NCBI GenBank assembly: GCA_021234155.1
Contig: JAJEKV010000196.1
Span: 307,640-371,639 of the forward strand
Direction: 5' to 3'
DNA from: Isoetes taiwanensis
Lineage: Eukaryota; Streptophyta; Lycopodiopsida; Isoetales; Isoetaceae
DNA length: 64,000 nt
A program made the translations under genes and the position numbers. Of this stretch, positions 14,266 through 63,430 are shown piece after piece. Under the pieces are notes generated by a model that was not told the DNA's origin, did not search any database, and was given only the letters and a program-made list of their open reading frames with translations. Position 1 is the stretch's first letter, and the number at the start of each line of letters is the position of its first letter.

Positions 14266-14274
14266 AGTGCACAA

Positions 14275-15099: not shown

Positions 15100-15121
15100 C
15101 TTTAAAAAGCTTCAAACACCC

Positions 15122-18633: not shown

Positions 18634-18667
<34 letters not shown>

Positions 18668-26737: not shown

Positions 26738-27005
26738 CGTCAACAGTAAAACACTGATCTGAGTTTTCGCGCCCAGAGGAAAAGGAGGGAGAAGGGCGTG
26801 ACGGGCTTCGACGTCCGCGAGTTTCAGCACTTAAAGTGCTTAAACGCTTCGCCAAATGTTGTACCCCACTAGCGATTTTACACCCAAGATGCGTCAGACA
26901 TTACTAGAAAATGAACAGACATGGGGCTGCAATGAAGAATAGCATAAGAACATGCAAAACTACAAGGAATTGAATTCATTATTCGTTCACGCGCACTGCG
27001 CGTGA

Positions 27006-28290
27006 ACCTACTTTCTCCTTATAGCATAAATACTTATAAGCATAAGAACAGAAAAATCCACAAGGACTTAAATTCATTATTCGTTCACACGCAGTGCGCG
27101 TCGAGTAGGTATTCACAATTCGTTCACGCGCTGGCGCAGAGATGCTAAAGCTAACACCAGCACCTGGTCTCTGATCTAGTATTCCACATGCATACTAATC
27201 TTGCAGGTGAAGTTTTTTTCAGACCAGGAACCAGGTGCTGATAGCTTGCACTCAACACACCCTCAGAGCAGAAACTCACTACATCACATAAACTTAGCCT
27301 GAAGCATAATAGCTATTCTTAATCGGTGAATTGATCATAGATCACTTCCAAATCAATTATGATCAATTCAATTATTAAGCAAAGACACTATGCTTCAACC
27401 CAAAGTTTATGGGATGTAGTATTTTACCTGAAAGGTGCTGCATGTGAACGAATTGTGAATACCTGCTCGACGCGCATTGCGGGTGAACTTACTTTCTCCT
27501 TATAGCATAAATACTTATAAAAATATGGACATGAAAAACCACAAGGATGAATTCATTATTCGATCCCATAATGCAATCTTGCTGGAGCGGTATTCGAGAA
27601 TTCGTTCACGCTAAGCAGCGATTACGCGGAACAATTGTGAATACTCGCCGACGCCAAGACCGCTAGCTCGAACCTACTTTACGCCGCGTGAATGAATTGT
27701 GAATACCGCCGACGCCAAGATCACAAGATGAACCTACTTTATCCTTATAGCATAAATACTTATAAGCATAAGGACAGGAAAAACCACAAGGTCTTAAATT
27801 CATTATTCGTTCACGCGCAGTGCGCGTCGAGTAGGTATTCACAATTCGTTCACGCGCTGGCACGGAGATGCTAAAGCTAGGACCAGCACCTGGTATCTGA
27901 TCTGGAAAAGTACTCCACATGCATACTAATCTTGCAGGTAAAGTTTTTTTCCAGACCAGGAACCAGGTGCTGATAGGTTGCACTAAACACACCCTTAGAG
28001 CAGAAACTCACTACATCACATAAACTTAGCCTGAAGCATAATAGCTGTGCTTAATCGGTGAATTGATCATAGATCACTCCCAAATCAATTATGATCAATT
28101 CAATTATTAAGCAAAGACACTATGCTTCAACCCAAAGTTTATGGGATGTAATATTTTACCTGAAAGATGCTGCGTGTGAACGAATTGTGAATACCTGCTC
28201 GACGTGCATTGCGTGTGAACCTACTTTCTCCTTATAGCATAAATAAATACTTATAAAAATATGGACATGAAAAACCACAAGGACGAATTC
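27006..28290. repeat. Tandemly duplicated compound hairpin element
   Basis: Two copies with a period of 726 bp (for example CTTATAAGCATAAG at 27,033 and 27,759). In each copy an outer inverted repeat (27,080-27,131 with 27,441-27,490; 27,807-27,857 with 28,172-28,220) contains the motif GTTCACGCGCAGTGCGCGTC. Inside it are two further hairpins: one with CCAGCACCTGGT opposite ACCAGGTGCTG, and one with CTACATCACATAAACTTAGC opposite its complement. Fragments of the outer arm recur at 26,955-27,005, 27,590-27,720 and 28,290-28,400. It is noncoding and resembles a foldback element. Confidence 0.85.
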
Positions 28291-28535
28291 ATTATTTCGC
28301 CCACGCGGAAGTCTTGGCGTCTAGCGGTCTTGAGAATTGCTCACGCCAAGACCGCACGCGGAAATGAGCAATTCAGAATACCGCTTGACTAAGACCGCAG
28401 ACGTGGACCTAATTTCTCCTTATCTTATCTTAATAAGGCAGGTAAACAAGTTGCATTTGCGGACGAAGGTCACAAGGAGAAGCAAAAGTTACAAATTGCT
28501 TATATGAAATAGTTAAGCTGTTATTGTGTTACTAG

Positions 28536-42929: not shown

Positions 42930-43066
42930 TGTCTTAAAGTCTCTGCAAACCTTATTGCTAGTTGGATTAGAACAACTGCTTCAATCTTGGCTAGATCTGT
43001 TGCAATACCTTCCGCTTTGAAATTATATGGCGGAGGTAGTCTACCTTTGGTGTAGCAAAATGACAC

Positions 43067-44301
43067 TTACTCGACCGCATACAATTGGTGTCGTCTCAAC
43101 TTCTGCAAGGCCTTCTTTAGATGCTCCACGTGCTCTTCCAAAGTCTTGCTATAGATCAAGATGGCATCAAAGAAAATGATAACAAATTCATCTAGGAACT
43201 CACAAAAAATATCGTTCATGAGTCTCATAAAGGTTGCGGGAGCATTAGATAAACCAAAGGGCATAACTGTGAACTCATAATGCCAATATCTGGTTCTGAA
43301 GGCTGTCTTGTGAACATCTTCTTCCTTGATCCTTGAAGCTGATCCATGAGGTCGTCTGCTCTAGGTAAGGCGTACTTATTCTTTATGGTATGCTTATTCA
43401 ACTGTCGATAACCAATGCACATCCGCATACTACCATCTTTCTTCTTGACAAATAAAATAGGTGCCCCAAAAGGAGACACACTTGGCCTTATAAACCCTAG
43501 ATCTAAGAGCTCTTTCAACTGTTTCTTGAGCTCTACCAACTCCTCACCAGTCATCCGGTAAGGTGCCTTGCTGCTAGGCTTGGTCCCTGTTTCGAGTGCT
43601 ATTTCACACTCTACTCCTCTGTATGGCAGAAGCTTCTCGATCTCGTCTGGAAAGACGTCGTGAAACTCCTTAATTAAGTCCACTACAGACTCAGGCAACC
43701 TTGCAAATAATGATTCCTTCTCGCCTTCCTCTTCAGGTTCGTCTATTGCTTGGAGCTTAAACACATATGTTATTTGTTGCCTCTTAATGCTTTTCAACAA
43801 TTTCTCAATAGACATACATCGATTACTTTCCTTGTCGTGAGGATTACTTTCCTTGCCGCTGTCGATGAAAGCTTTCTTAGGGATAAGATATTCCATCCCG
43901 ACTATGAGGTCGTACTTTCCCATATCCATGATCTCTGCTCCCATACTTACTTCAACCCCCGGCAACTCAATGTTGAAGTTCACTCTTCTCCCTTCGGTAT
44001 ATCTGACTTTCCCATTAGCCAATACAACTGGCCTAGGGTTTAACCGAAGGGTCTGAAGCTTAAGCAACTCTACTATGCGTGGCGAGGCAAAATTATGGGA
44101 TGGCCCCGTATAAAAAAGAACTACGAATGGCTTAGCCTTAATTTTTCCCACTGTGGAAATGATATTATACTGACTCTCTGCCTTCTCAGAATCTATAGCA
44201 GCTAGAATGTGACAATTACCTTGGATATAATCCTGCGCCTCCTCGTCATCATCCCTCTGAGGGGTTTCCCAACCTTCGAGCTCCATAAAGCATTTGCGCA
44301 T
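43067..44301 (-). pseudogene. RE2 protease and reverse transcriptase, broken
   Basis: The protease region reads [20 protein letters not shown] and [12 protein letters not shown]; the catalytic Asp of the D-T/S-G motif is replaced by Tyr. RT follows: [60 protein letters not shown] frameshift near 43,310 separates this from [18 protein letters not shown] and [18 protein letters not shown], where the FFDD catalytic pair reads FFDA. Both enzymes have therefore lost key residues as well as frame. Confidence 0.9.
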
Positions 44302-44315
44302 TCATCACATGAGGG

Positions 44316-45415
44316 CAATTATGTGTCTTATGGCCTGGTTGAAAACACCTGAAGTATAAGTTCTTATCGATACATTCCTGTTTCTTCTCTCTCGGCATAA
44401 CTGTTAGAAAATTCTTTACTGCCTCAGAGTAGCCTGCTTTTTGTTGCCCACCTTGACGATGCGGCTAGAACTGGGGCCTATCCTTGAAGGTCACCTGCTT
44501 CCTTTCCTGCCTCGGATAGGGAGGAGTATAGGGTGTCCTTGCCGGCGCTGGACTACCCGGCCTTGGGCTATACGCTCCAGGAGATCTGTTCCTGTCAAAA
44601 TAGTTCTGCTTTGGCCCAGTGCCTTGCAGGCTTACTGCTTTGGCTTCTTCTTCTGAGACTGAAGTTGGGCAAATTGCCTTCACCAAGCGTCAAATCTCTT
44701 CATTTAGGCCCTCTATGTAGCCATCCACTGCATCCTTCTCACTGAGCCTGGGAACATACATGCGAAGGCGCATAAACTCTTCCATGTACCTCTGTACTGA
44801 CATGTTCCCTTGTTGCAACCTGTGAAACTTCTGCATCATGTTGGTCTTATGCTCTCTCGGAACATACTGCTTCTTGAAGGCTTTCTTGAACTTGCTGAAC
44901 CTAACGGACCGTTTGCTCAACCCATTGCTCTTTGCATAGCTGGTCCACCAAACCTTAGCAACCCCTTTGAGGTTTGTGATTGCTACTTTTCCTTTGTCCT
45001 TCTCGTTCAGGTTATAATTCTTTGCATAATCCTGCATCTCCTCAAGCCAAGCCTCGGCTTCTAGCCCTGACCTGCTTTCTCCTGAAAACATCTCCAACTT
45101 TTGTGCCTTCCAAATGTTCCTCATGGCGGAGTCTAACTTCTTTTGGTAGTTGGCATCGGCCCTATCATTGCCTGGCCTATTGTTTCCGGCCCTGTCATTC
45201 TGAGCTCTTACATTTCTTTCTGGCTCGCTACTATCCTGCTTTGTCTCTGACTCAGTGCCAAAGGAGCCTGAACTGCTATCTGAGGATGAGTGATATCTCC
45301 TGTGCCTCTTCCTACCTCTATGTTCCCGGTCTCGGTTCCGCTCTCGGCCCCTCTGAGGTGTGACGTTCCTCTCCTTGGGGTATCTCGGGTTGTGGGGGCG
45401 ATCTGATGACATCAT
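44316..45415 (-). pseudogene. RE2 gag with zinc knuckle, broken
   Basis: The start at 45,415 gives MMSSDRPHNPRYPKERN, an Arg/Ser-rich leader, then the gag core LEMFSGESRSGLEAEAWLEE, VWWTSYAKSNGL, FKKAFKKQYVPREHK and MSVQRYMEEFMRLRMYVPRL. It is open for 241 codons to 44,690. After a one-base shift, the Pro/Arg-rich linker (GAYSPRPGSPAPARTPY) continues to a stop at 44,465. A degenerate zinc knuckle (YFRCFQPGHKTHNCP; first Cys now Tyr) is near 44,316-44,372. Confidence 0.88.
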
Positions 45416-45499
45416 ATAAATGGGTAGGAGTGACTATCCATAAACGTCCGGACGGTTTTGCCCCAGTGGTTAAGGGGATATGATTTAGGATCGTCTCAG

Positions 45500-46140
45500 T
45501 GGTATCAGAGCAATGATCTCGTAAATCCCGGATCATGGCACTTACCATGGCCAATTAGTACTAATGAGGATTAGTTATAGTTGACCTAGAATTTTATTAG
45601 TATTTGGTATGCTACTAACTTCTTGTAGAGTAGGAATTTGCTAAATTGGAGTGCACCATCGAATTCCCGGGACCCAAATTAGCCAAGGTGGACCCGAGTC
45701 AACGCATGAAAAAGTCAATGCACCCCAAGTCAACGATGGGTGCGCGAATGGGCTTTCGTAATTTTAAAATTAAAAAATAAAAATCCAGATGCCCAGAAGC
45801 GCAACCCGTAGAAAATATTTTCCGTCCGTTTTTTTTATACGTATAAAATAAAAAAAAAAAAACTTTTTAAATACATTCTTTTTATATGTTATTTCCGGGT
45901 TGTTTATCTTTCATCCGCTCAAGTTTTTCGCCACCATCGCCAACTCGGAGATGCTCTTGCGCCATCGCCATATCTCAAAACCGAGCTACATCGCCGGACT
46001 TCATCGCTAAACCGCCATAGCATAGCGCCTTGATTTGTCTAGCCGCTTTGCCCTAGCGCCTACATCCATGGCGAACTAGAAACCGTTTCTCTTTCTACCC
46101 GGACCGTCAATGAGCTACTTCTCTTCCTCGTGATGGGTCT
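45500..46140 (+). other. RE3 primer-binding site and leader
   Basis: TGGTATCAGAGC (45,500-45,511) is complementary to the 3' end of initiator Met tRNA. The following 300 bp resemble the reverse complement of 56,570-56,930 (shared: GGCACTTACCATGGCCAA, CTAGAATTTT-like, AGTAGGAATTTGC). An AT-rich run with TACGTATAAAAT (about 45,838-45,849) could serve as a promoter for the ORF that follows. The 80 bp before the primer site do not look like the LTR ends found at 61,394 and 62,346. Confidence 0.65.
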
Positions 46141-46251
46141 TACGGAACCAGTTGCTGAGCAAGACCCTTACCTTGAGGAGTCCGCCGGTTCTTCCTAGAT
46201 GAGCCAATCCCTTTTCCCCTTTTCCATTACTCTGCTCTCTTTTTGCTTAGA

Positions 46252-47236
46252 CTCAACGCCAGAGGGGCCAACTATACCTTACAAGATCGTCCCGACCTGA
46301 CTCAAGTCATTGTCCGGTACATGCCCCATTCAGATATCCTGCTCACACCAGAGGAATTGAATGCCCTGAATCGACGGGAAAGCGGGGCGGGGGTATCGCC
46401 ATAGCGAAGCCCATGACATTGCGAAGCGGGCGAGCAGACGAAGCGACGCGTAGCGGGGCTTCTACTACTTAGGTGATGGGAAGTGCCTCTTCCAGCAGGA
46501 TTTAGTCACTATTCCCCGTTACACTTTTCTCGCTCCTATGAACCAGTTCATATGGGATCCGAGCGTGAACGAGGGCTTGGAGCCCCTTCTGCTTGCCATT
46601 GGACGGGACATGCTTGCTCACCCTGACAGGTACCACGCTGAGCTTCGCCGCCGTGCACATGATCCTCCGGTGATTCCTGACCGCGTTCCCCAAGCACCTG
46701 TTGATCCTGATCCAGTAGTACCTGATCCAGCGGTAACGTCTACGTCTTCCCCAAGAGTCTCCAACTGCAGACGGAAGCAAACTAACGTCAAGAGACAGAG
46801 GAGGACAAATATCGCCGACCGCCTGCAAGATTTGGGGCAACGAACAGGTGAAGAGTCGCGTAAGTTTCGGGAAGACTTGGCCTATTCACGTCGTGTGCCT
46901 CCAGTATATCCTGCCAAAACAATCCGGAAGAATAGGAAGCCGCATCGCTATAGGCCGGGTACGGTAGCATTGCGGGAGATTCGGAAATATCAGAAGTCGA
47001 CAGAGCTTTTGATCCGCAAGTTACCTTTCCAGCGACGTGTGCGGGAGATAGCACAGGAATTTAAGACCGATCTTCGGTTCCAGTTGCTCGGGGTTCTAGC
47101 TTTACAGGAGGCCGCCGAGGCATACCTAGTCTCGATGTTCGAGGATGCGAACCTGTGCGCTATCCACGCCAAGCGCGTCACCATTATGCCGAAGGATCTT
47201 CATCTTGCTCGCAGGATTCGCGGCGAGACGCGTTGA
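46252..47236 (+). CDS. Histone H3-fold fusion ORF inside RE3 leader
   Basis: From the ATG at 46,538 a clean 232-codon frame runs to a stop at 47,236. Residues 1-45 read [32 protein letters not shown]; residues 46-70 are Pro/Asp-rich; 75-130 are basic. Residues about 134-230 (46,937-47,227) are an almost canonical H3 core: [82 protein letters not shown]. Loop 1 is the normal H3 length, so it is not CENH3-like. The usual H3 tail with Lys4, Lys9 and Lys27 is absent. The frame is open upstream to about 46,467 ([20 protein letters not shown]). An earlier block after an acceptor (TTTTGCTTAG, 46,251) reads [20 protein letters not shown], separated by a scrambled GC-rich stretch. It could pack into nucleosomes; function unknown. 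Confidence 0.85.
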
Positions 47237-47402
47237 CGTCTTTTTGTTGTAACACATTCGTGTGTAACATCATTTTTTTGTACAAACTTAGGTATATACA
47301 GTTTTTCAAAAAATATATGCGTATAAAAATTTTGAAAAATTGCAATACGTTTTTTTTTTGAATATTATATTATTAAGGTTGATGTCACTTTTAGGGTTTC
47401 GC

Positions 47403-47412: not shown

Positions 47413-47497
47413 GAGGATTTCGTTTTAGGGTTTCATTTTTTCCCCTTCCTTCTTTTTCAGTCTTCCTCCTCCTTTGCTTCTTTCGCTTCTTGCTATC

Positions 47498-48942
47498 ATG
47501 GCCTTTTCAGCACCTCTTACCTTTGATGACCGCCTTAGATGGTATGCAGCTGGAGAGCATTGGGATCCCCAGATTCCATATCCTCTCTTGGATCATCAGT
47601 TGTTGTTCTCCATTGACCTCATTGCCAATATGCAGGCTCATTCTGCCTGCGCAGAGTGGTTAGAGTTTTACTTGCACGATATTGTTCCCCTTTGTGTTAC
47701 CATGGGAGAACCTCCAGCACTTTACCTAAGCCACAATCATCGGTGGAGATCTTTGGGTGGAGATCGAGCAACCGAGCAAACTCACAGTATGGCATTATTG
47801 GCCCGTGCCATTCAGCCGCCTACCCTTGCTTTTGGGGACAACCTTCATTTTGAGGCCACTTTTGCTCTTGCCATCCTTATGGACCGGTTTGTTCCAGACG
47901 AACCGCTTCTTCCGGGACAAGGGTCACACGAGGATGACGATGAAGACGATGAGGAAGTCGACCTCACTGATTTCCAGCATTTGCACCAGCTAGCACACGA
48001 AATACCTGAACGAAGTCGGCATCACCTCCGTTTTGGTAGTTTGGAGGCCTTGCCCGTTGTTTGGGTCAATGGTAAGGATTATTTACTTTTTGAGGATATC
48101 CTCGCCATCTATCATGCTTGTGGTATCAAAAAAGGGGGTCATACTCACCTCAAGGTTGAGATTCTTTATCAATTGGCAGAATACTGTATGGATCCTTTTA
48201 TTGACTACACGGATCCTCAGTTACCACCACCAGTCCAGCATGCCTTAAGTTAGCATGCTGAGGGTTTTGATCCCGCTCGCACTCTTTTAGAATTGCGGGA
48301 TTATTTCCTGGAAAATGCACCTCCGGAACCTGATGCTTCTGAGTTTGCCAGCCGCGGACCTCATGTTCGTCCAATGCATCTGGTGGAGGTAGTTGATGTC
48401 CCAGATGATACTGAAGAATCCCTCACAGAGATTTCGCAACAAGAGCGAAGAGAAATCAAGGAAGAAGAGGACGAAGATGCTCTTCCTATGGATCTCGAGA
48501 AGGAAATTCAGCACTTTCGGCCCGATCCTGCGATCTTCGCTTGGGGTAATGCACTTACCCGTTTCTTTCTCTCGACTTTCGACAAGACCAGGTCTTGTTT
48601 TGTGCCCAAAGGTTATCCAAGGAAGCTGAGGCCCGCGTGGTGGGCATTGCGGGCTTTATCGATTCTGGCGGGCCATTTCGAATTTGGCAGCGGCGGGCGG
48701 CCGTCGTTACGGTACATTTTTGCCCGTCATACGGCATTAGGCGCCTTGTGCCGAGGATCGCCGGGCCCCTTATCTATGAGGGTGCTCACGCGGCGCACCG
48801 TTGGCCACTTTTGTCCTCGAGGACTTCACCACCGGCGGGTTTTGCTGCTCATCCGGCCCGGTTGCCTTGCCGCTATCGCCCTCCGGTGGATGCTCCTCCC
48901 AATTCATCGAGGCGGGACCTAGTTCACGAAAATCTTTTGTAA
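47498..48942 (+). pseudogene. Second RE3 leader ORF, unknown protein
   Basis: The start at 47,498 (ATCATGGCC context) gives MAFSAPLTFDDRLRWYAAGE, LLFSIDLIANMQAHSACAEW, PPALYLSHNHRWRSLGG, LHFEATFALAILMDRFVPDE, then an acidic run (EDDDEDDEEVDL), WVNGKDYLLFEDILAIYHAC and LKVEILYQLAEYC. A single TAG at 48,251 interrupts; the same frame continues FDPARTLLELRDYFLENAPP and a second acidic segment to about 48,600. A shift then leads to a frame ending NSSRRDLVHENLL at 48,942. Originally it was probably about 480 residues. No catalytic motif or known family is recognised. It is transcribed in the same direction as, and lies between, the H3-fold ORF and gag. Confidence 0.6.
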
Positions 48943-49156
48943 TTTCTTAAGTTTACGGATGTAGCCTTCGGGCAATTTTGTTGATTACTAAATACGTTTA
49001 TTTTATATCATCAAACTTATGCCGTACTTTGTGCCCTTCTTTTCTGAGTAATTAGTTGTTCTAGATCATTGCTGTATATGTTGTTTCAATTTTCGTGAAC
49101 TTTGAATACTGCATATACAAGTTCTATCTAAATACAACTACTTCTCTTTTGTATAG

Positions 49157-50560
49157 GCCATCCAGATGAACGCTTGTTTCGGCAACAACTTGCCGATATA
49201 CACGCCTACGTGCTTCAACAACCACGGGCGTCGGAAGGCATGCCAAATATTGGACCTTTGGACAGATATCAGCCTCCTAGCCAGGGGGAGAACGTGGTCC
49301 AGCCACCGCCATCACCACGTGCTAGCAATGTCAGTCACCGTGGGCATCATCGCCATCAGGACCGCCGACATGATGGGGATCACAGCAGACACCACCGTCA
49401 GCACCGTCATCACGATGGTAACCAGGATCAGTACAATCCAGATGGTCGTCGGCTTAGGCATGCTGATGCGGGTGGAGATGGAGATGGTGATGGGTCCGAC
49501 GATGAAAGGCGTCACCGACATGGAAGGGACCATAGACGGCCTCACAGGGATGGTCGTCGTGACAGAAGACGATGTGGTCAAGTTCCAGTTCAGATTCTTC
49601 CGACTCAAATGTTTCCACAGATTTGGAATCTGATGCTACTCGTGCAGGCCACGGGGACTATCGAGGAAGAATGTGAATCTTTGCCATGGCCAATGCGGAA
49701 GAAACGAAAAAACTTTCACAGTTCACAGGAGACGGCCGCACAGGAATCCAAGCCGAAGCATGGTTGGATGAGATGCGAGAGTTTGGCCAGTTCCACAGGA
49801 TGACGGATGCAGATATGGGTAGGGTCGCAACGGCTAATCTAACCTTTGCTTGCTTTCGTGATCGGTGGAAGGGGAAGCTTCGGCGCTCTCGAGTCTCTAG
49901 GACAAAGTGTCCATTTAAGAGGTTTGGCAAGGCATTTAAGCATCACTTTGTTCCTCGTGCCAAAGAGATGCCGGCGATTCGAGGCTCTACGAGGTTCGAC
50001 AAAAGAACATGTCGGTACAGGAGTACACTAATGAGTTTATGCGGCTGCGTCTGTATGAGCCCAAAATGACAGAGCGCCGTGCAGTGGAAGGCTATGTGGA
50101 GGGGTTATCAGATAACTTGCGTAGCATGGTTCGTGCTTTGGGCCCCAGAACTGTTGCGGATGCCGAGGAGAAGGCTTTGAGCTTGGCGGAAGGGCCGGGA
50201 CAATCATCCCGGGGTAAAGCTCCTGATTACACTCCCACCACCAGTAAGCCTTATGTTCCCTATCGGCAAAGGTCTCCAGGGCCGAATTATGCACAGCAAG
50301 CTCCGCCAGCTCCAGAAAAGCGGGTCACTTTTAATGCACCTCCTAGGGTGCCATTGGATCATTTGCTTTCGGGCTGAGCGGAACGGATGAGGAATTTGAT
50401 ACAGACAGTCACTTCCGAAGATAGAGCCCGGGGTTGTGAGAACAACTCCTGTTTCCGTTGTTTTCAACCAGGCCACAGGATGCAGGAATGTCCACGGCTC
50501 ACGGCTATGGCACAAGCGGCGCTTGTTCGAATGGATTTTGATAATTACGCCGACTTTGCT
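49157..50560 (+). pseudogene. RE3 gag with zinc knuckle, broken
   Basis: A good splice acceptor (CTCTTTTGTATAG at about 49,157) precedes HPDERLFRQQLADIHAYVLQ, then a His/Arg/Asp-rich region (GHHRHQDRRHDGDHSRHHRQ). The gag core follows in another frame from about 49,690 (LSQFTGDGRTGIQAEAWLDE, FKRFGKAFKHHFVPRAKE), then, shifted again, MSVQEYTNEFMRLRLYEPKM and VEGYVEGLSDNLRSMV from 50,009. After an in-frame TGA at 50,378 comes an intact zinc knuckle CFRCFQPGHRMQECP (about 50,450-50,500). The acceptor suggests that the upstream ORFs may be removed by splicing to express gag. Confidence 0.85.
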
Positions 50561-51149
50561 GATATTCCTCAATACGAGCCCGAAGATTATATACAAGGTC
50601 AGTGTAAAATTTTTGCTGCTATTGGCCCGACCAAGCGAGAAAGTCAACTGCGATTATTTTCACTTTGTTGGCACCATAGATTCCAAGCCCTTTGTTGTTT
50701 TGTTGGATTGTGGTAGTACCCACAATTTTGTCTCTCCACGAGTTTCCAATATTTTACAGTTTAGGGTCCTGCATTCTAAACTGCGACCTGTGATGTTGGC
50801 AAGTGGTGCTATCCGTTATACAAGGGGACAGCGTCTGAATTTGGATGTTCAGTTGCCCAATGCATCCACTTCTTTTGGTGCCGAAGTCATGGATATTGGT
50901 GGTTATGACTTGATCATTGGCATGGAATTCTTGACTCTAGCAAATGCTATCATTGACTGTGCAAAACACACGGTGACGTTTGATACAGCTGAAGGCAAAC
51001 GCGTCACTATTGCAGGTAAGCCGCTTACGCCTGTCATGCAATGTATTTCTATGAGGCAATTATGCAAGGCATTTAAAAAGAACCAGGTTGCTTATTTGGT
51101 TAAGCTTAATGCTATTGCTGCCCCATCCAAGCATGCCTCAACCTATTAG
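50561..51149 (+). pseudogene. RE3 aspartic protease
   Basis: Reads TIDSKPFVVLLDCGSTHNFV (catalytic D-C-G, variant of D-S/T-G), VMLASGAIRYTRGQRLNLDV, FGAEVMDIGGYDLIIGMEFL and MQCISMRQLCKAFKKNQVAY. The frame from 50,436 is open to 51,149, where it shifts into the RT frame (from about 51,120). The same order is seen in RE2. Confidence 0.88.
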
Positions 51150-52497
51150 GGACTTGTTGCATGAGTTTCAGGATTTGTTTCCTGACAACATACATCAGTT
51201 GCCACCATTCCGTGGAGTGGAATGCGAGATCACCTTGGAGCCGCACACTCAACCTCCAAGTAAGGCACCTTACAGATTATCTTCCCCGGAGTTAGCGGAG
51301 TTAAAGAAGCAGTTGCAAGAACTTCTTGACTTGGGATTTATTTGACCGAGTGTCTCACCTTTTGGGGCACCGATTCTTTTTGTCAAGAAGAAGGATGGTT
51401 CTATGAGGATGTGTATTGATTATCGCCAGCTTAATAAGCATACCATCAAGAACCGTTACGCTCTGCCTCGTCCTGATGACCTCATGGATCAGTTGCAAGG
51501 TGCTAAGTATTTTTCAAAGATTGATTTGCGATCGGGATATCATCAGATTCACATTAAAGAAGACGACATCCATAAGTCGGCTTTCAGAACACGGTATGGC
51601 CATTATGAGTTCACAGTTATGCCTTTTGGTCTTACTAATGCTCCCGCGGTTTTCATGCGGTTGATGAATGATGTGTTCCGTCAGTATTTGGATGATTTCA
51701 TCGTTATCTTCTTTGATGATATTCTAATCTACAGTAAGACTCTTGAAGAGCATACTCATCACCTGCGGTTAGCTCTTCAGAAGCTTCGGAGACATCAGCT
51801 CTTTGCTAAGTTCTCCAAATGTAAGTTTGCAGCCACGGAAGTGGAGTATCTTGGTCATATTGTCTCTGCTGAGGTCATTTCTACAGATCCCTCTAAGATT
51901 GAAGCTGTTCAGGGATGGCCTGCTCCTCAGAATGTCTCGGAAGTCAGAAGCTTCTTAGGCTTGGCAGGTTATTATCGCAAATTTGTAAAGGGGTTTGCTG
52001 AGTTAGTTGCACCTTTGACAAATTTGACCAAGAACCAACTGGTTCGGGATTGGGCTTTGCATTGGAGAGAGAATGTTCAATCCTGTTTTCAGAAATTGAA
52101 GGATGCTTTGATTTCTGCGCCAGTCCTTACACTTCCAGATCCGGAACTCGATAAGTTGGTTGCCACAGATGCTAGCGATGTTGCTACAGGTGGAGTTCTT
52201 ATGCAGGAAAGTCGGGTGATTGCTTATGATTCCAAGAAGTTAAATCCTGCACATCAGAACTACCCCACACATGACAAGGAGCTTTTGGCTATTGTCCATG
52301 CCTTGCGTATCTGGCGCCATTACTTATTGGGTCGGCCATTTCAACTGGATACTGATCATCAGAGTCTCCAGTATATCTTCACTCAGCCCAACTTGAATTT
52401 GCGGCAGCGGAGATGGATGGAGTTCCTTGAAGAGTATGAATTTCAGATAGTCTATAAGCCTGGTAAGCACAATGTCTATAAGCCTGGTAAGCACACT
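51120..52497 (+). pseudogene. RE3 reverse transcriptase and RNase H
   Basis: RT: SKAPYRLSSPELAELKKQLQ, then a TGA at 51,343 where related elements have Arg (a CGA to TGA change), then [58 protein letters not shown] and [17 protein letters not shown] (catalytic DD intact, near 51,715). RNase [41 protein letters not shown] and [12 protein letters not shown], so the acidic residues are retained. The frame is open for more than 350 codons. It ends in a 24-bp duplication (VYKPGKHN repeated) and breaks at 52,497, where RE4 LTR sequence starts. Confidence 0.95.
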
Positions 52498-53181
52498 GAA
52501 CCTTCATCAAAGAGGAACAGCCCGGGAGGGCTCTTATGCACAGGCTGCATAGGGATCTACAGGGATCTATCTAGGCTAGAACCTACTCCTAATAAGCTTT
52601 CAGGCCTCTACCCATCCCTTACCCCATTAACTAAGGAAAGGTGCAACAGCAATACCAACAGAATAGAACAGAGAACATCATCATCATCATAGAATAGAAT
52701 AGCGAAATACTCCATAAAACGAATACAAGGGTCAGTGTAAAGACAAAGAATCATGACAAACTAACCGGAACATCCACTGGATGCATGGAGACTAGATCAG
52801 AGGATGGAGAAGAGCTCGAATCTGCTGATCCAGGTGATGGCAAGCGCCAGAGTTCTCGAACCCTTGGCTGGGTGCTGGGTGCTGGCGCCAGAGCTCTGCT
52901 GCCCAAGTCGAAATTGGGGCAAAAAGGCAGATCTAGGATCTGGTCCCTTTTATGCATGCTCCTGGCCCTTCGATTGGGCCACGTGTCACCACCTTAATTA
53001 ATTAAGTGTCACCACATTAATTAATTAAGTGTAACAAACCTAACATGTTAGTACAATGTTAATGTTAACATATCAAGTTAGACTAACATGTTAACATAAC
53101 AAGTACCTCTTGGGCCGTAGGTCGGTGACGTGTCACGTATGATACAGTATTTATACCCGTATACTTACGGGGAACGTCACA
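52498..53181 (-). repeat. RE4 3' LTR, truncated
   Basis: Matches 57,788-58,474 closely; about 845 bp of the LTR (the equivalent of 56,944-57,787) is missing. In minus sense it starts TGTGACGTTCCCCGTAAGTA and contains a TATA-like GGTATAAATAC about 30 bp in. The cut edge at 52,498 joins directly to the RNase H end of RE3. Confidence 0.9.
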
Positions 53182-56100
53182 TTCTCCCCCCCTTAAAAAA
53201 AATAATGTTGTCCTCAGCATTAGGAAGGGTCTACCACTGTTAGGGGGTCAAGAGCCGTATAACCACACAAAGTGATTGTAACAAGGGATAAAGAAATTAA
53301 ATTAAGATTATGAATGCCAACCCAAAGGTGAGGCGAAGAAAAAGACACGCTTACGCACAACCACCAAGAGTGCTTAACTCAAAGGTCAAGATAAGGTAAA
53401 AAAAAATTGGGTAACGAGAAGGCCAATTATAGACATAGGAATTAAGCACAGGGATAGAAAAAGTATATACAGAACGGAAGCATGAGAGAACTAACTGTAA
53501 TTACTTAATAAGGTCTAGACCCGTTAGTATCGATAACATATTACATGTTACCATAAGGGAAAATTGTTGGCATATTGAAAAGGCGAAACATATTGGAAGA
53601 AGTCCAATATGAGTTGTGGATATGACTCAATAAAGTGAGGGAAATAAAACAATTCCCAGATTCTGAAAAGAATAGGATGGTGAAATCATTAGCTGCACAA
53701 AAGTATCATCGTCAAAGTGATCAATTTTGAAAATGACGTTCGTGTGCAGGGAGATTTTAAATTACACAAAAAAATACCATGTTCAAAATGAGCAGTTTTG
53801 AAAATGATATTCATGTACAATTCATAAGTGCTATTTTGATTTTGATATTACTACACCTAGCGTAAAACACTGAATTTATACAGGAGTGTATAAGACAAGA
53901 TGTAGATGAGTGGTTGGTACTATGTATGTTATAACGTAACATACCTATGATACAATTAACTTGATATACATTTCTAAAGGATGAGGGTTGAATGGAATAT
54001 TTAATATCCCAATCATGGACAGAGTTTGAGAGAAACAATGGGAATGTAATCTTATTATAGATACATGCCGAGACAAGGAGTAAAAACAAAGGGGCGATGT
54101 ATGATGACGGGTCCGAAGAAAGTAGTGACCCGGGAAGATGGGTAACAATGTTGGTCAATTGTATGCCCAACATACGTGGTAAGCAAGAAGGCATGGTTGG
54201 CATGCGATCTCCTATTTAGATCGAACAATTTCCTAAAGAAGACAGGGTAACATGATTATGGTGCTATTGTTCAGAATGAGATGCCAACAATATCACCTGA
54301 GGATTCCTAGAATAGGCAATTACATTTTCTATTAAGCCTTGGAAGGATTAAGAATCTCAAGAGATTCCGAATATTGAGGGAAATTTTAGTTTCCCTACAG
54401 GACAGAGGTTGATTATGAATGGTGACATCACAGTAAGAGCTGACACGGGTAGACGCTACTAGGTGATAACCTTCCATTCACATGGATTGTATGATAGAAG
54501 AAGAAATTTTAAGATTTATTAAACACAACATGTTATATACACAAGATGTGCGTAATATATCTATCGGTTTCTTCAGAAGACTGTCAGGGTGGCTGCATGA
54601 TTGAGGTAACAAGAATCATAAATTCTTGTACTACGAGCAATTAAAGGTTAGCGAAACTTCGAAGATAAGGATCATGTCATGTCCATACCTAGACATGCCG
54701 ACGGAGATAGGGGTTGCCTAGAGAGTCGTGTCTAAGATAATACATTATAGTTACACGGCCGCGTGTAACCCATAAAAGATAAGGTAGAGACTACACTCAA
54801 GTCTGGATAGGAGTCAAGACGAAAGGTATCGGTTCGAATAGATAACAAATAACTTATCTCAAGTATTTGGTTTGGGCTCTATTCAAGGGTTCCGATAATG
54901 GCAGAAAGAAGAGATTAAGGACGACTCTTATAATTATACCCTGAGGTATAATCCCAAAGAGATGAGGTCATACTAGATTGAAGTGCCAGAATAACATTCC
55001 CTAGGGAACCATAGGGTAGATGTCAGAATGGATGGCGATCACACGTTATATAACGTGCAAAAAAAAAAAAAAAGGACATATAGAAGGGACCAAGTAAGAA
55101 TTAGGGTCCGCATTACAAGAGAAATAACAGGCCCATAACAAAATTCAAGGCGCATTACTTTAGAAAAGATGGCAAGAGCGAGGCCGCAATTGGTTCTGAG
55201 GGATTGGTTACGAAATCCCAATAAGGATTTAGAATGACGGCTATGAAAATGCGAGCAGATGTTGGCTACAACATCGAGTTGATACCAAGAGGGCAGGATA
55301 ACCATTAACGAATGCATCCAAAAAGAATGTCGTATGGTAGGTGACGGGTAGAATGACTCAGGGTCAAAGTGCCAACTCCAAGAGATAATAATAGACTTTC
55401 CTCAAGGTTACAAAAGGGCAAGGAAAGAGAATGAAGGGATCTCATAAAACTAGGTGGAAGTGGACCGAAAAAGCGGATTCACGACATACCGAAGGAAGGA
55501 GAATCCCAGACAAGAGAGACGACCAATATCGAACAAGAAGTTCGATGACAGAAACTTGGGTGTTCTATTGGAGCATACCTCATTGTTGACGAAGCGAAGC
55601 CAGCATACCTCGTTAATAATGAAGCAAGGCCAAGACAAAGGGCTTATCACGTTGTAATTCTTAAGGACAATATAGAATTTAGTCAGTGGGTTATCCACAT
55701 CATTTACAGGTTGTGGTAGACTGGCAGAAAGTATACCCCATGTACCATAGGGAATACCCACTAGGTATGGTAACTGACCGAGCCATCGAGAGCACGGCAA
55801 CGGTACCAGAAAGACACGACAGTGGCTATAGGTTGGTTCATCGAAAAACCAACGCTTGGTCAGCGGTGGTGTAAAATTCACGGTGGTTCTTCCACAGTAA
55901 TCCAGGAGTGGCAGACATGACAAAGTACTGGTAAAATACCAAGTACAGACTGGAGAGACGTGTAGTTGACATTTGTAACAAATGACAACAACAGCTAACG
56001 TAAAGTGACTTCCTAAAAAGTCAATTGCATGAACACTGCTGGGTCACGAGGATAGTATAACCATGGTAAATAACCTGGTTAATAAGACTGGAGACTTGCA

Positions 56101-56930
56101 CGTAGAAGTGTTCATGTGAAGACATAGTTCACCAGAGAGATGTGGTCCCTGACAAGATGTAAGGTTGGAACAAGATAATACCCCTAGGTAATCAAAGAAA
56201 CGACACATTCTCTCCCCCTTGACAGGAATGATATAGACAAGGACTACTAAAGCAGATTTAGCCCATCCTTAGAAGGGTTATTCTATACGCGAGAAGTAGG
56301 TGACTATGGGAAAGCGAGCTTTCAAGCTCGGTGGTTATCCTTGCACTGAGTGCTGATGGAAAGATCCCTTCTTCACGGTATAAGGAGTTGACGAGGAATA
56401 GAGGAGGACACTCACCTAGGTAAACGAAGCTATGGGTACGTCGGCTATGGCAGGCGAAGCTCAAGGTATGCCGGCTATGGACGCCACAAGCCGCTGCTGC
56501 ATTACCTGAAGTTCGGCACTCCAACAACTTGGGTCTGATTAAGAACAACAAGAGACATTCAATTGGAAAATAAATCCGGGGTTAGACTTAAAAGAAACAA
56601 GCGGACAGAAAAAAAAATTTAATTTTTTTTTTTTTTTTTATTCAGAGTTGGGGATTTCGATTTTTATTTTTTTATTTTAAAATTCGGATTCCCCATCTGC
56701 GAATAACTTTGACTTTAACCCAGCTGACTTTGTCCAGCGTTGACTCGGGTCTCCCTTAGCTAAATCAGGTACTGGGAACTCGATGGTGACCTCCAATTTG
56801 GCAAATTCCTACTCTACAAGGGGTTAGTAGCATACAAGACACTAAGAAAACTCTAGGTCAATTCTAACTAACGGAAATTAGTACTACTTGGCCATGGTAA
56901 GTGCCATGATCTTGGTCTACCAAGATCATC
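53182..56930 (-). other. RE4 internal region, noncoding
   Basis: Begins, in plus reading, with the complement of a polypurine tract (53,182-53,195). No retroelement protein is visible. Open frames up to 157 codons (55,450-55,923, minus) have no recognisable motif. A second polypurine/LTR-start-like junction (complement of GGGGGAGAGAATGTGTCG) lies at 56,199-56,216, suggesting that a further element or a recombined piece is included. The part at 56,570-56,930 is the leader shared with RE3. Confidence 0.6.
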
Positions 56931-56942
56931 GCTCTGATACCA
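56931..56942 (-). other. RE4 primer-binding site
   Basis: GCTCTGATACCA on the plus strand is TGGTATCAGAGC on the minus strand, pairing with initiator Met tRNA. It is one base from the LTR end (…CATCACA in minus sense), the normal spacing. Confidence 0.9.
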
Positions 56943-56943
56943 C

Positions 56944-58474
56944 TGTGATGCTCCCTGACGATATACGATGCTCCCATCGTATAAGCCCAGAAAATCCCCC
57001 TTCCCAATGCACTCAATGCACCATTGAGTCACTGAGTCGGGCCCTCCATATACCCTGGAACACTCGTGATGGGCGAGCTTCCAAGGGAAGGGCACGGAGG
57101 TGTCTTGGCCTTCCATCCCTTCATAGGAACCTATACAGCGGAAGCAAACACGTTAGCACATACCAATAAGCCAATAAATAATATGCCACCTCCAGGGGTG
57201 GCCCCTCCATCAATACACAACATAACATAGAATATGCAACTATGATGCAAGGCCTTACCCCCGGCTCAGTATCAAGGGAAGATGACTGTCGGTCAAGGCT
57301 CAAAAAACAGCAAGAAGAAGAAGAACAATGGCAAATGGCTGGCACAAGAAGTATAGACCACAGGTATCCACTCCATCCGCCCCTCCTGTGCATACTTTGC
57401 AGAATGGATTGTTCCAACTTCTGATCAGACTCTAGGTCTTCTCGGAAACGCAAACCTCAGGGAATCACCCTCTGAGATCTACTCCGGGGTTCATAATCCC
57501 TCCGACCAAAGACCATGAACTAGAAGTGTTCCAGAGAATGGGGTATCCATGTGCCACAGAAAGATCGTCACCCGGATCACCGGCATCCGACCATACCCGA
57601 CTGAACCCATCTCTCCGCATAGCCAGAGCTAGGGCGTTAGACCTTATACCCAGGGCTCCCTGAGTCTCTAAGTATTAGGCTTAGCAGCTGAAATAGGGAA
57701 CAAGCCAAGATCACTTGGCGAGGCCCCGTACCACTTCTCCCCACCTCCTTCTCGTGAATCCATGGGGTGCAATGACACCACATGGACGAACCTTCATCAA
57801 AGAGGAACATCCCGGGAGGGCTCTTATGCACAGGCCGCATAGGGATCTACAGGGATCTATCTAGGCTAGAACCTACTCCTAATAAGCTTTCAGGCCTCTA
57901 CCCATCCCTTACTCCATTAACTAAGGAAAGGTGCAACAGCAATACCAACAGAATAGAACAGAGAACATCATCATCATCATAGAATAGAATAGCGAAGTAC
58001 TCCATAAAACAAATACAAGGGTCAGCGTAAAGACAAAGAATCATGACAAACTAACCGGAACATCCACTGGATGCATGGAGACCAGATCAGAGGATGGAGA
58101 AGAGCTCGAATCTGCTGATCCAGGTGATGGCAAGCGCCAGAGTTCTCGAACCCTTGGTCATTTGGTCTTTGGGGCGAGCTCTGCTGCCCAAGTCGAAATT
58201 GGGGCAAAAAGGCAGATCTAGGATCTGGTCCCTTTTATGCATGCTCCTGGCCCTTCGATTGGGCCACGTGTCACCACCTTAATTAATTAAGTGTCACCAC
58301 ATTAATTAATTAAGTGTAACAAACCTAACATGTTAGTTAGTACAATGTTAATGTTAACATATCAAGTTAGACTAACATGTTAACATAACAAAAGTACCTC
58401 TTGGGCGTGGGTCGGTGGCGTGTCACGCGTATGATCACGGTATTTATACCCCGTATACTTACGGGGAACGTCCA
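56944..58474 (-). repeat. RE4 5' LTR, full length
   Basis: About 1.53 kb. In minus sense it starts TGTGAC/GGACGTTCCCC near 58,474 and ends GGGAGCATCACA at 56,944. It contains a TATA-like GTATAAATACC close to the start and another candidate (GCATAAAAGGGACC, about 58,230-58,243). Its 3' half resembles the LTR pieces at 59.4-62.3 kb; its 5' half is more diverged from them. Confidence 0.88.
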
Positions 58475-58479
58475 CGGTC

Positions 58480-58936
58480 AACGAGATCTTGCGACATGCG
58501 GGCTTTGGTTGAAGAAATGCGTGCTTACTTATTGGTCGCTCGTAGTCGGTGAAGACTATTGAGATAAGCACCGTACGGATCGTCAATTTCAGGTTGGCGA
58601 AACAGTTTGGCTTAAGATTAAGGTCAAGCAAGCTAAGTTGCGCATTGGCAATTGTAAGAAGTTGGCACCCAGATGGGCGGGTCCCTTTAAGATTAAGGAG
58701 CGTTTGGGATCCCAGGCCTATAAGTTGGAATTGCCATCTCGACTTAAGATACATGATGTTTTCCATGTTAGCTTGTTAAAGCAGCACACTCCGAATCCTC
58801 ATGAGGTTATAGATACTCAAGTCCTGTTGGAGATGACTGAGGAACAGTTGGAAATTGTGCCAGAGGCTTTATTAGAAAAGTCTCTTAAGAAGACTCGTCG
58901 TACTCAACTTACCCAATTTTTGGTTAAGTGGACTTA
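58480..58936 (+). pseudogene. RE3 integrase C-terminus and truncated chromodomain-like end
   Basis: Broken start (EILRH, EMRAYLLVARSR), then DKHRTDRQFQVGETVWLKIK, KLAPRWAGPFKIKERLGSQA (GPF motif), LPSRLKIHDVFHVSLLKQHT and EIVPEALLEKSLKKTRRTQL, FLVKWT, ending in a stop. The last part matches the first strands of a chromodomain (E-x-I/L-L-x-x-R, then F-L-V-K-W); the remainder (usually W-E-P-x-x-N-L) is missing, as if cut at 58,937. Chromodomains of chromoviruses are thought to steer integration through histone H3 marks. Confidence 0.8.
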
Positions 58937-58937
58937 A

Positions 58938-59405: not shown

Positions 59406-59420
59406 GCGGCTCCGACGACA

Positions 59421-59935
59421 TCACGATGCTCCCATCATTATACTTGTAGGGGACTTTCCCCTTCCCAACCATTGGGTGGACCCCTCGGGACACGTGGAAC
59501 ACTCAGGAGGGCTGAGCATCCAAGTGAAAAGGCACAGAGGTGTCATTGGCCGTCCCTCCTTTCATGGAAAAACACCTATAACGTAGCGGAAGCATAAACG
59601 TTAGCACATACCATAAAACATCAATATGCCACCTCAAGGGGTGGCCCCTCCTTCATATAAGATGCAAGACAAAGAAATGCATCTAAGCTACTATGAGTGC
59701 ATATCTTACCGAGGGCTGGGTCAAAGGAAGATGACCTGTTGGTGCGAGCTCGAGATAACGCGAGAAAGAAGAAAGAACAATGGCAAAATAGGTGGCACAA
59801 GAGATATAGACCACAAGTATCCCTCCATCCGCCCCTCCTGTGCACACTTTGCAGTGGGACTGAAACTTGCTATGCTCAAGCTCTGGATCTCTCAGAAACG
59901 CAAATCACATGGAAGCCCCATTGTCCGGGATACTT
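59421..59935 (-). repeat. Inverted LTR fragment with fold-back junction
   Basis: 59,421-59,903 is the 3' half of the family LTR in inverse orientation (complement of about 60,900-61,380). At 59,904 the orientation switches: ATCACATGGAAGCCCCATTG (59,904 onward) is in plus sense and equals 60,791 onward. The switch occurs at a 3-base overlap (ATC). Confidence 0.75.
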
Positions 59936-59949
59936 CTCTAGGGGTACTA

Positions 59950-61394
59950 ACATTGGACGTTGTCCTAACATTGTCTAATTGGTGGTTAATTAATTAGCTA
60001 AGGATTGGGTTTTTCCGTGGCATCATCCTATTGGTAGGTGAAACCCCAATCTCATAAAAAGGCCAAGCTTCCAAAACCCCTCTTTTTGGGCGTGATCAGA
60101 TCAGCCCTTTGACCCGGCCGCCCGGGGCTCGACCAGTTGTTCGTGTCTCCGTTTTTCCACCTAAACTCACCCCTTGATTCGTCTTTGTTCCCTGTTGCTA
60201 TCATGAGCCACTCCGGGAACTCGAATCGGTCGAGGGTTCGTTTGTAGGGTTTGATTCTTTGTTATCTTTCTATTGATTTCAGTTCATGATTCTTGTAATA
60301 CGGATTAACCCTTGGTTGAGATGGAGCTCAATTATATTGTTCTTTCAAGTTATGGTTGTATTCTTTGTATTTTCTGCTGTTTTGCCTCTCTTTGAGGGTA
60401 AGGAATTATTAGAGGCCTGGAAGCTTCATAGAGGCTAGAATTTCAGCCTAGAATAGATCCCTATAGATCCCTTTAGGCACGTGCATAAACCCCTTGTTGT
60501 TTCTGCTATGGAAAGCTCAAGGTCCATGTTGATCTTTGCTGCATCCTTGGGCTTGCAACAAGGAGATGGGATGGAAGTGGTGCGGGGCCCATGGGATGAT
60601 GGACGGAGCCCATGGCCTCTGTTTGGATGCTCAACTTTGGTGGTCAGAGCGAACCCTCACGGGGGGGATACTCTAGGTATGGGGTGAACCTCTCGGAGGG
60701 GGATACTCTGGTTGTGGGTCTGACACCCTAGGCGACAGTACTGCAAATGGGTTAAGTCGAGTACGGGAGATCGATTACGGGACCCCTTGAGCATCACATG
60801 GAAGCCCCATTGTCCGGGATACTTCTTGTCTCTGATTTCAATCCAAACGGGCTCATAACCTGGCAAGTAGATCTCTGAGGGTGATTCCTTGGGATTTGCG
60901 TTTCTGAGAGATCCAGAGCTTGAGCATAGCAAGTTTCAGTTTGCCAAAGTGTGCCGCAGGGAGGGGCGGATGGAGTGGATACTTGTGGTCTATATCTCTT
61001 GTGGCAGCTATTTTGCCATTGTTCTTTCTTCTTTCTGCTGTTATCTGAGCCCAGACCAACAGTCATCTTCCCTTTGGACCGAGCCTGGGTAAGATATGCA
61101 CTCATAGTAGCTTAGATGCATTTCTTTGTCTTTGCATCTTATATGAAGGAGGGGCCACCCCTTGAGGTGGCATATTGATGTTTATGGTATGTGCTAACGT
61201 TTATGCTTCCGCTACGTTATAGGTGTTTTCCCATGAAAGGAGGACTGACCAATGACACCTCGGGTGCCTTTTCACTGGATGCTCAGCCCTCCTGAGTGTT
61301 CCACGTGTCCGGAGGGCCCGACCCAATGGTTGGGAAGGGGAAAGTCCCCGGCGTTATACGGTGGGAGCATCGTATGCCGTCAGGGAGCGTCACA
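59950..61394 (+). repeat. Near-complete LTR, plus orientation
   Basis: Includes the 5' type sequence (GTTTTTCCGTGGCATCATCC, TATA-like CTCATAAAAAGGCC), the middle (AGATCCCTTTAGGC) and the 3' end GGGAGCGTCACA at 61,394. It is not followed by a primer-binding site; instead a second, 5'-truncated copy begins at 61,396. Confidence 0.75.
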
Positions 61395-61395
61395 T

Positions 61396-62359
61396 TGATT
61401 AGAGTTTAGGTTCTAGCCTAGATAGATCCCTGTAGATCCCTTTACGGCCTGTGCACAACCCCAGCCGACTGTTCTTGCTATGGGAAAGCTCAAGGTCCGT
61501 GTTGGTGTTGCTGCACCCCTGGATTTGCAATAAGGAGGTGGGATGGAAGTGGTACGGGGCCCATGGGCTAAAGTGTGTCCCCGTTTTGGATGCTCAGCCT
61601 ATGGCCGGAGAGAACCTTCGAAGGGGGAGATTCCGGGTATGGGTCTGACACCCTAGGTGGCTGATTGAAATAGAGTACCCACGAATGGGTTTGTGAAAGT
61701 CGGGTACGGGATGACTGATTACAGTGTCCCTTGAGTGTCACATGGAATTCCCATTCTCCGGGATACTTCTTGTCTCTGATCTCATTCCAGACCGGAGTAA
61801 TGAACCGGCGAGTAGATCTCTGAGGGTGATTCCTTGGGATTTGCGTTTCTGAGAGATCTAGAGCTTGAGCATAGCAAGGTTCAGTCCCTCTGCAAAGTGT
61901 GCACAGGAGGGGCGGATGGAGTGGATACTGTGGTCTATACTTCTTGTGCCAGCCATTTGCCATTGTTCTTCTTCTTCTTTCTGGCGATTTCGAGCCTTGA
62001 CCAGGTGTCGTCTTTCCTCAAGGCGAGGCACAGGTAAGGATCGCACTCATAGTAGCTTAGATGCATTTCTTTGTCTTTGCATCTTATGTGAAGGAGGGGC
62101 CACCCCTTGAGGTGGCATATTGTTGATTTGTGGTTTGTGCTAACGTTTATGCTTCCGCTATAGGTATTTGTCCCCATGAAGGGAGGGGTGGCCAATGACA
62201 CCTCCGTGCCCTTTCACCTAGATGCTCAGCCCTCCTGAGTGTTCCACGTGTCCGGAGGGCCCGACCCAATGGTTCGATCCGTTGGGGAGGGGAAAGTCCC
62301 CGGCGTTATACGATGGGAGCATCGTATGCCGTCAGGGAGCGTCACAGTGGTATCAGAGC
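61396..62359 (+). repeat. 5'-truncated LTR and primer-binding site of a further element
   Basis: The LTR copy begins mid-sequence (AGGTTCTAGCCTAGATAGAT) and ends GGGAGCGTCACA at 62,346, followed by G and TGGTATCAGAGC (62,348-62,359). The internal region is recognisable for only about 100 bp and shows no gag. This is the 5' end of another family member (RE5), cut downstream. Confidence 0.8.
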
Positions 62360-63430
62360 ATAGGCCCAGGGTTCGAATCTCACCTTGTACGGGGTGGGAG
62401 GAGAATTTCAAGGGTTATTTCACACTCATTCCATCTGTTTGGGAACGTTGCACACTGACCCCAATTTTTGGTCCACAGTTGTTTTTTACTTGTACGGAAG
62501 TGTTGTTTTATGCCAAAAACAACACCGAAATGGCCCCAAAAGTCCACGTGGCCCGTTTATCCGGATTTGCACAAAGAGACGCGGTTGGTTTTGGCGAAAA
62601 TTTCTCTTGTGGTTTTTGCTGACTTTTTTTTTTTTTGGTCAACGTGTCCTTTTTTCATTGTTGTTTTTGCAAATTTTGTCAACGCGTGTGGTTTTTCTTA
62701 TTCGTGGTTTTTTCACGAGCCATACGTTGTTGTTCATCAAAATAACACGCGTTGGTGTAGATATTACTACACGTATAAACTTAAATTACAACGTCAAAGT
62801 AAGATGGTTTGTTAAAAATAATTACATGTCGTTTAACCAAGTACCACCTGTTACTTAAATCTAGCTATTGTTTTTAATGCTACTATCTATTGTTTTTCTA
62901 AAATAAAGACATGTAAAAAGCACTATTAGTACACATAGAAAAAAAAAAAAAAAAGATGTTTCAATGTGTCTTTAGGCCAATGAAATATCGACCACGTGGC
63001 ATACTTTAAAAAAATATAACTTGAATACAATATAATACAATATTGGTACGTGTCATAATTTGTTAAAATAAAAACATTTTTTCGACACATTATTACTTTT
63101 TAAATGTGATTTTTAACCAATGAAATATTAACACATGGCATACTTTTTTAAATAACAAAGCACTATTTTAACTAATGAAATGTAGACACGTGGTGCACAA
63201 TTGAAAAAAAAATTAGTATATACCACAATTTAAAAGTCAATATATCTATGGATCTGTTTATTTCAAAATAAAGAAGCCTTTTGGGAATCGAACCCAAACA
63301 AACCCACATGGCATAATAATATTAGATTGTAAGATTCTATCACTAATTAATAAGGTAATGGAGGTATCAACCATTAGATACAAATAATTTAGATGCCACT
63401 GAAACCATTGAAATTCATAGAATTCATAAT
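62360..63430. other. AT-rich noncoding DNA with short repeats
   Basis: Open frames at 62,385-62,858 on the plus strand are T-rich and have no motif. From 62,970 to 63,210 the phrase CCAATGAAATATNGACACGTG recurs about four times in diverged form. A minus-strand GGGTTCGATTCCC (63,283-63,295) is a perfect tRNA T-arm/B-box match, with stem TTGGG/CCCAA, but no full tRNA cloverleaf could be drawn. Confidence 0.4.

Follow-up and report, generated by a model that had tools for sequence, protein, structure and literature searches.

The 64,000-nucleotide stretch of Isoetes taiwanensis DNA analysed here (the window) contains an LTR retrotransposon with a histone H3 fold encoded in its leader. We conclude, at a probability of about 95%, that this element is a degraded member of an old Ty3/gypsy family with many copies, in which the first long open reading frame after the primer site (ORF1) encodes a tail-replaced H3, captured once and held under purifying selection. 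That the family is as described and that its H3 ORF is also functional, the mechanism being left aside, appears highly probable from the sequence comparisons that follow. The window reaches the end of contig JAJEKV010000196.1, and the genome comprises 1,658,258,908 bases in 1110 contigs.

The ORF list of the window contains a 232-aa frame at exactly 46538–47236 on the plus strand. Within it, residues 120–228 match PF00125 in Pfam (E=3.2e-40) and residues 126–230 resemble a solved H3.3 chain (E=4.3e-52, phmmer against the PDB), the best PDB matches being H3 chains. The H3 core itself occupies residues 134–230 (46937–47227, plus strand), which bears out an earlier note, made from the letters alone, that had placed an H3 core of about 97 residues at the end of this frame. 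Compared with one H3 gene of the host, the window core carries 11 differences over the 99 positions from K37 to its end. The frame had also been described as the cleanest of the element, and this does not hold: it is the tail of a longer, broken ORF, and the reverse transcriptase frame is longer. The main open part of ORF1 extends from 46454 to 47236 (plus strand; 260 aa from stop to stop), with the reported ORF starting at the ATG at 46538. An upstream piece at 46180–46386 (plus strand), recovered by tblastn with the intact ORF1 proteins of 20 copies, encodes part of the N-terminal domain in a frame other than that of the H3 part. The protein of the window copy itself may not work, judging by its L70R change and altered residues 86–88. 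A structure prediction for the window protein alone had a mean pLDDT of 47.6 and was left unused. A processed retrogene was considered and rejected, inspection by eye around 46454–47300 revealing neither a poly(A) tail nor flanking repeats.

The H3 ORF is preceded by an exact primer-binding site (PBS) for initiator-Met tRNA, TGGTATCAGAGC, at 45500–45511 on the plus strand. Three PBS-like sites are observed in the window against 0.26 expected by chance (at most one mismatch). No LTR match within the window adjoins the PBS at 45500, and since the sequence just ahead of this site resembles an LTR end over no more than a few bases we take the copy to be without its 5' LTR. Downstream of the H3 ORF lies ORF2 (47474–48922, plus strand), which an alignment of five copies and the window piece shows to be collinear with the intact 480–490 aa ORF2 of other copies; it is interrupted by a stop at 48251–48253, and the second leader ORF at 47474–48253 sits between the H3 ORF and gag. 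The gag region (49132–50377, plus strand) is split over several frames and was recognised by similarity to the gag of other copies, the window gag frames tested against Pfam giving no match. It is followed on the same strand by a protease region (50400–51149; RVP_2, E=1.3e-9) and by reverse transcriptase and RNase H (51346–52497; Pfam RVT_1 and RT_RNaseH), which are cut off at 52497. The C-terminal end of the integrase of the same pol resumes beyond a nested insert at 58563–58937 (plus strand; Pfam SH3_Tf2-1 and Integrase_p58_C); Chromo on this end piece alone reaches E=0.15, below the cut-off. The H3 ORF therefore lies between the initiator-Met primer site and gag with all parts in one direction, as the earlier note had it. 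The window copy is decayed: its 5' LTR is gone, ORF1 and ORF2 are broken, gag-pol is spread over several frames and pol carries the nested insert. Between ORF2 and gag, at about 48942–49156, splice-like borders seen by eye suggest an intron before gag.

The insert in pol (52498–58472, minus strand) is a related element with no H3 ORF, a PBS at 56942–56931 and repeated LTR parts at 52498–53178 and 57788–58472. About 300 bp of its leader is common with the H3 copy at 78% identity, and its repeated LTR parts are about 95% alike. It looks non-autonomous, because neither H3 nor gag-pol is recognisable in it. The H3 ORF is absent behind two of the three primer sites in the window, namely those at 56942 (minus strand) and at 62348 (plus strand, behind which the window extends for just 1.6 kb); H3-less relatives of the element exist. 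The minus-strand gag-pol of another relative (42974–45433) ends 67 bp before the plus-strand PBS, with its leader cut at the junction, and LTR-like repeats in both orientations are clustered at 59409–62364, the last of them ending in the PBS at 62348 near the contig end. A pair of 2.5-kb direct repeats (9189–20165), 95% alike, encloses a different Ty3-type pol (13909–17106), probably as a full-length LTR element in its own right. Tandem repeats built of units several hundred bp long form local blocks at 3541–4885 and 27003–28381.

A first genome search, in which the best 150 of 8756 candidates were scored, returned host H3 genes, H3 fragments and places matching both the N-terminal part and H3, with open frames of up to 567 aa. 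We fetched 20 copies, chosen for long open frames, together with 14 shorter H3 places that proved to be ten host H3 genes and four element fragments. With the intact 409-aa ORF1 of copy L015 as query, at least 102 matches were scored of 12410 candidates in this genome; at least 88 of these span the whole ORF (starting at or before residue 2 and ending at or after residue 403 of the query), and 59 of the 88 are stop-free. These copy counts are lower bounds, as only the best candidates were scored. In each of the 20 fetched copies, additional ORFs come after the H3-bearing ORF1 in the same orientation; the earlier note had advised looking for copies with the ORF in this place, ahead of gag and behind the primer site. 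TGTGACGTTCC, the LTR start, is present in 19 of the 20, and the flanking DNA differs among the 18 starts compared. The PBS is exact in 17, one letter short in L013 and L018, and missing, along with the LTR start, from L009. Across the 17 copies with the exact PBS the LTR measures 1574–1690 bp and ORF1 begins 633–795 nt after the PBS, with 2–9 upstream ATGs, mostly opening short frames, ahead of it.

Two copies retain LTR pairs, with K2P distances of 0.022 and 0.035, 5-bp TSDs (CTGAA and GTTCT) and the PPT GGGGAGAA before the 3' LTR. All the Ty3/gypsy landmarks (LTR pair, TSD, PBS and PPT) are therefore present in these two, the window copy being without a 5' LTR. In the two copies tested against Pfam, Ty3_capsid and RVP_2 were found in L022 and L009 and RVT_1 in L009; in L009 the gag-pol frame follows ORF1 directly, without ORF2. 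Other copies and the window combined give the order gag, protease, reverse transcriptase, RNase H, integrase. In an LTR survey, 41 LTR matches (44 minus three short fragments) were compared with the scored H3 matches on the contigs they have in common. For ten of the 41, an H3 ORF lies in the same orientation and as far away as expected; for one, on C1097, the spacing is odd. The match at C1034:26599355 belongs to a copy that carries a long insert and represents its 3' LTR, a PPT being present; a pattern search did not locate the 5' LTR start of this copy. The remaining LTR matches, with no H3 neighbour among those scored, could represent either solo LTRs or copies with an H3 outside the scored set.

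A forward extra ORF of more than 250 codons thus stands upstream of the polyprotein in all 20 copies, in which ORF1 (394–448 aa) comprises a short start, a domain of about 200 aa, a charged linker rich in Lys and Arg, and the H3 core. The N-terminal domain has 31 invariant columns among 16 copies. Intact ORF1 copies match PF00125 at an E of about 2e-41, and the whole ORF1 of three copies (E up to 1) hits histone-fold families only, plus one weak unrelated match overlapping the core. A profile of the N-terminal domain found nothing among PDB sequences up to E=10. The N-terminal part alone found no relative in the protein database among candidates of 128–406 aa, a range that ORF1 proteins of about 400–450 aa could escape, and with the whole ORF tandem-H3 proteins came out on top among the best 120 of 8000 H3s scored. 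A search of viral contigs with the window protein, ORF2, and alignments of the N-terminal domain and of ORF2 confirmed no relative, and PHROGs gave nothing for four proteins. ORF2 is open as frames of 480–490 aa in L014, L021, L023, L024 and L027; it has no match in Pfam, a single match (E=1.3) in a profile search of the PDB and no relative found in the protein database. A second histone or a duplicate of the N-terminal domain was considered for ORF2 and finds no support.

The canonical H3 tail, ARTKQTARKSTGGK followed by K27 and K36, is replaced in ORF1 and survives as traces only. Other copies begin MARTK-, MARIKQTA- or MAITK- (L012 MARTKGTK and L010 MARIKQTAS, compared with MARTKQTA in H3), 19 of 20 have a Lys in the place of H3 K4, and all 20 have a G-x-K motif like STGGK14 before the core, with STGGK itself in L014. 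All 21 sequences carry Arg at position 36. The earlier description of the tail as missing is thus right as far as the canonical tail is concerned, and wrong in that the start, the Lys at the K4 place and the G-x-K trace are kept in other copies. We read ORF1 as an H3 whose tail appears to have been split and filled by a new domain. K9-like motifs occur in some linkers (ARKS in 3/21, ARK[S/T] in 5/21 and RKxT in 6/21) and may be remnants, mimics or chance occurrences in a basic stretch.

Across the 21 element cores there is no substitution at R49, R63, R69, R83, H113, R116 or D123, and R72 and C110 are each changed in one copy of the 21. These conserved positions include what we take to be the H4, H3' and DNA contacts, and the residues for H4 and nucleosome contact would on this basis be largely kept. 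The chaperone-recognition stretch differs from host H3, with T or A at position 86 in 20/20 copies and F87 in 19/20. A CENH3 is recognised by a lengthened loop 1 and a divergent core; this identity was rejected, all 21 cores aligning with host H3 over 99 columns without a gap.

We built a maximum-likelihood tree of the 99-residue core from 21 element sequences, ten host H3 genes and nine H3s of other species, among them a Cricetulus H3 that was cut across a repeat and sits on a long branch. All 21 element cores fall on one side of a branch with a support of 97; a neighbouring branch, with a weak support of 64, separates the window copy from the remaining 20 and gives it a basal position within the element clade. 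T107A and I124L are common to all 21. At position 77, Glu is found in all ten host H3 genes and in the window copy, and the 20 other copies divide into nine with E77 and eleven with Q77. By comparison, the retrieved protein set, which is ranked towards tandem-H3 proteins, has D77 in 239 of its 240 H3 domains, the single Glu being that of the window ORF. The clade support, the two common substitutions and the pattern at position 77 together point to a single capture, most likely with an H3 gene of this plant lineage as the source; E77 makes a distant donor less likely. The ten host genes fetched (L029–L035 and L037–L039) also have Y41 and L90.

Selection was assessed from Nei–Gojobori medians over pairs with dS of 0.02–1.2 among the 20 copies (190 pairs), the copies having been chosen open and the pairs not being independent. 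Median dN/dS is 0.041 for the H3 core (104/190 pairs; pooled 0.054), 0.083 for the N-terminal domain (77/190; pooled 0.123) and 0.194 for the linker (104/190; pooled 0.268). For the nine copies with an open gag, the values are 0.039 for the core (28/36 pairs), 0.076 for the N-terminal domain (19/36) and 0.128 for gag (19/36); ORF2 gives 0.105 (6/10 pairs from five copies). Between subfamilies, synonymous sites are saturated and core pN is 0.05–0.13 in the pairs listed. Where sites are saturated, path averaging makes dN too high (a pN of 0.07 is obtained for a pair of host H3 genes only one core residue apart), an effect that works against the conclusion of purifying selection. Of the two explanations that the earlier note offered for the open frame, recent capture or selection, the second is favoured by the low core dN/dS (about 0.04) and the conserved core, and the first is not supported, given the synonymous saturation and the weakly supported basal position of the window copy.

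These data constrain what ORF1 might do. Transposon silencing works mostly through marks on histone H3. In the mechanism that we propose, ORF1 would be expressed and its H3 fold would pair with host H4 and enter (H3-H4)2 tetramers or nucleosomes. Through the rebuilt tail, with Arg at 36 and mostly without the canonical K9/K27 stretch, such chromatin would accept the usual marks poorly, and a factor of the element or of the host would be tethered there by the N-terminal domain. The element could thereby protect its own DNA from silencing or direct where it acts. As a whole, this scheme of a nucleosome-competent H3 variant shielding or targeting element chromatin is tentative, although quite conceivable. 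A sharper version, which we hold to be doubtful, makes the tail-swapped H3 the anti-silencing tool of a lycophyte retrotransposon: nucleosomes would lose or change their K9, K27 and K36 sites and display a docking domain, and the element would write its own chromatin state on its DNA or targets. The ARK[S/T] and RKxT motifs count against the anti-silencing step, since K9-like sites may persist in the copies that have them. The upstream ATGs ahead of ORF1 and the existence of H3-less relatives are further points against the overall reading.

ORF1 might instead be a packaging or particle protein, its H3 fold and basic linker condensing element RNA or cDNA, with or without host histones, as an accessory nucleocapsid that reaches chromatin only with the cDNA. 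Its position beside gag on the same strand and the Lys/Arg-rich linker ahead of the core would suit such a role; however, the gag of these elements has a zinc-knuckle match of its own, albeit a weak one (E about 0.04), and the H4 and H3' contact residues are kept beyond what DNA binding by itself would call for. We consider this unlikely, and give the same low credence to a decoy or tail mimic that would occupy histone chaperones or H3-modifying silencing enzymes and so lower their activity towards the element. The H3-like start with its Lys at the K4 place, the G-x-K motif of every fetched copy, the K9-like motifs of a minority of linkers and the altered chaperone site with F87 are all consistent with mimicry, but a pure tail decoy would have no need for a core, and it is the whole core, including the DNA-contact arginines, that is the most constrained of the parts measured; ARK[S/T] is absent from most copies.

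Extra ORFs of doubtful function are described as frequent in plant elements in passages of PMC6317226, and an H3 gene could have been picked up by chance and amplified without function; yet the core is the most constrained part examined, which makes a mere passenger unlikely, and with a core dN/dS of 0.04, below that of gag, across saturated synonymous distances, and with two thirds of the full-span copies (59/88) free of stops, we find it very improbable. Least credible, to the point of carrying almost no weight, is the idea that elements have inserted into or around an H3-like gene of the host. The window is indeed a nest of several elements and its H3 copy has no 5' LTR, but the same ORF occupies the same place in every fetched copy, with differing flanks at the 18 LTR starts compared. 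The counter-case envisaged in the earlier note, copies without the ORF and a single host locus, fails likewise, the fusion recurring genome-wide behind the PBS and in two copies with both LTR pairs and TSDs. A nucleosome-competent H3 variant that shields or targets element chromatin is the reading of function that we carry forward, with the reserve stated above.

A retroelement family with its own H3, a rebuilt tail and a core constrained beyond gag would make transposon-encoded chromatin directly testable, and the element H3s form a natural variant series showing which parts of H3 can change. In Isoetes taiwanensis, element-borne H3 copies can also confuse histone annotation and chromatin work. 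If the sharper, anti-silencing version is true, no earlier case would be known of a retroelement that encodes and maintains a histone variant, and an arms race with the host would be recorded in the diverged versions of this one. The earlier note knew of no described LTR element with H3, and our search of open-licence PMC papers likewise found no LTR element carrying a histone. The nearest precedent for an element-borne H3 is a fungal hAT DNA transposon: according to passages of PMC3538342, an element of Pyrenophora tritici-repentis carries an H3L gene, with 26 H3L genes in all. As in Isoetes, an H3-like gene there travels with a mobile element, alongside the genes of the element itself, and is multiplied by it. 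It differs in being a DNA transposon with terminal inverted repeats and in its nearly identical, recent copies, as those passages describe them, whereas the Isoetes family is an LTR element with diverged subfamilies, a new tail domain and purifying selection; in place of terminal inverted repeats and a hAT transposase we find LTRs, a 5-bp TSD and a reverse transcriptase.

Virus-encoded histones are a second point of comparison. Viral H3s, including single ones, are known, and a bracovirus H4 is reported to enter the nucleosomes of the host and, via its N-terminal tail, to change host expression (excerpts of PMC9145170; PMC5423620). These too are core histones encoded by a parasite, but their carriers are DNA viruses, and the excerpts of PMC9145170 mention no retroelement. 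A third comparison is with plant Ty3/gypsy elements whose extra ORFs belong to the eORF-5'F class, such as Athila and Tat/Ogre, which have in common with the Isoetes family a forward extra ORF upstream of the polyprotein, an iMet primer site and a long element. In the sections of PMC6317226 that treat them, their eORFs are highly divergent with no lineage-wide domain, and the domains named (plant mobile domain, Transposase_28 and Athila ORF-1) include no histone, in contrast to the H3 of the Isoetes ORF1. Chromoviruses, which are Ty3/gypsy elements with an integrase chromodomain (passages of PMC3350952 and PMC6317226), are likewise linked to H3 biology, but where they are described as reading the marks on H3, the Isoetes family carries H3 itself.
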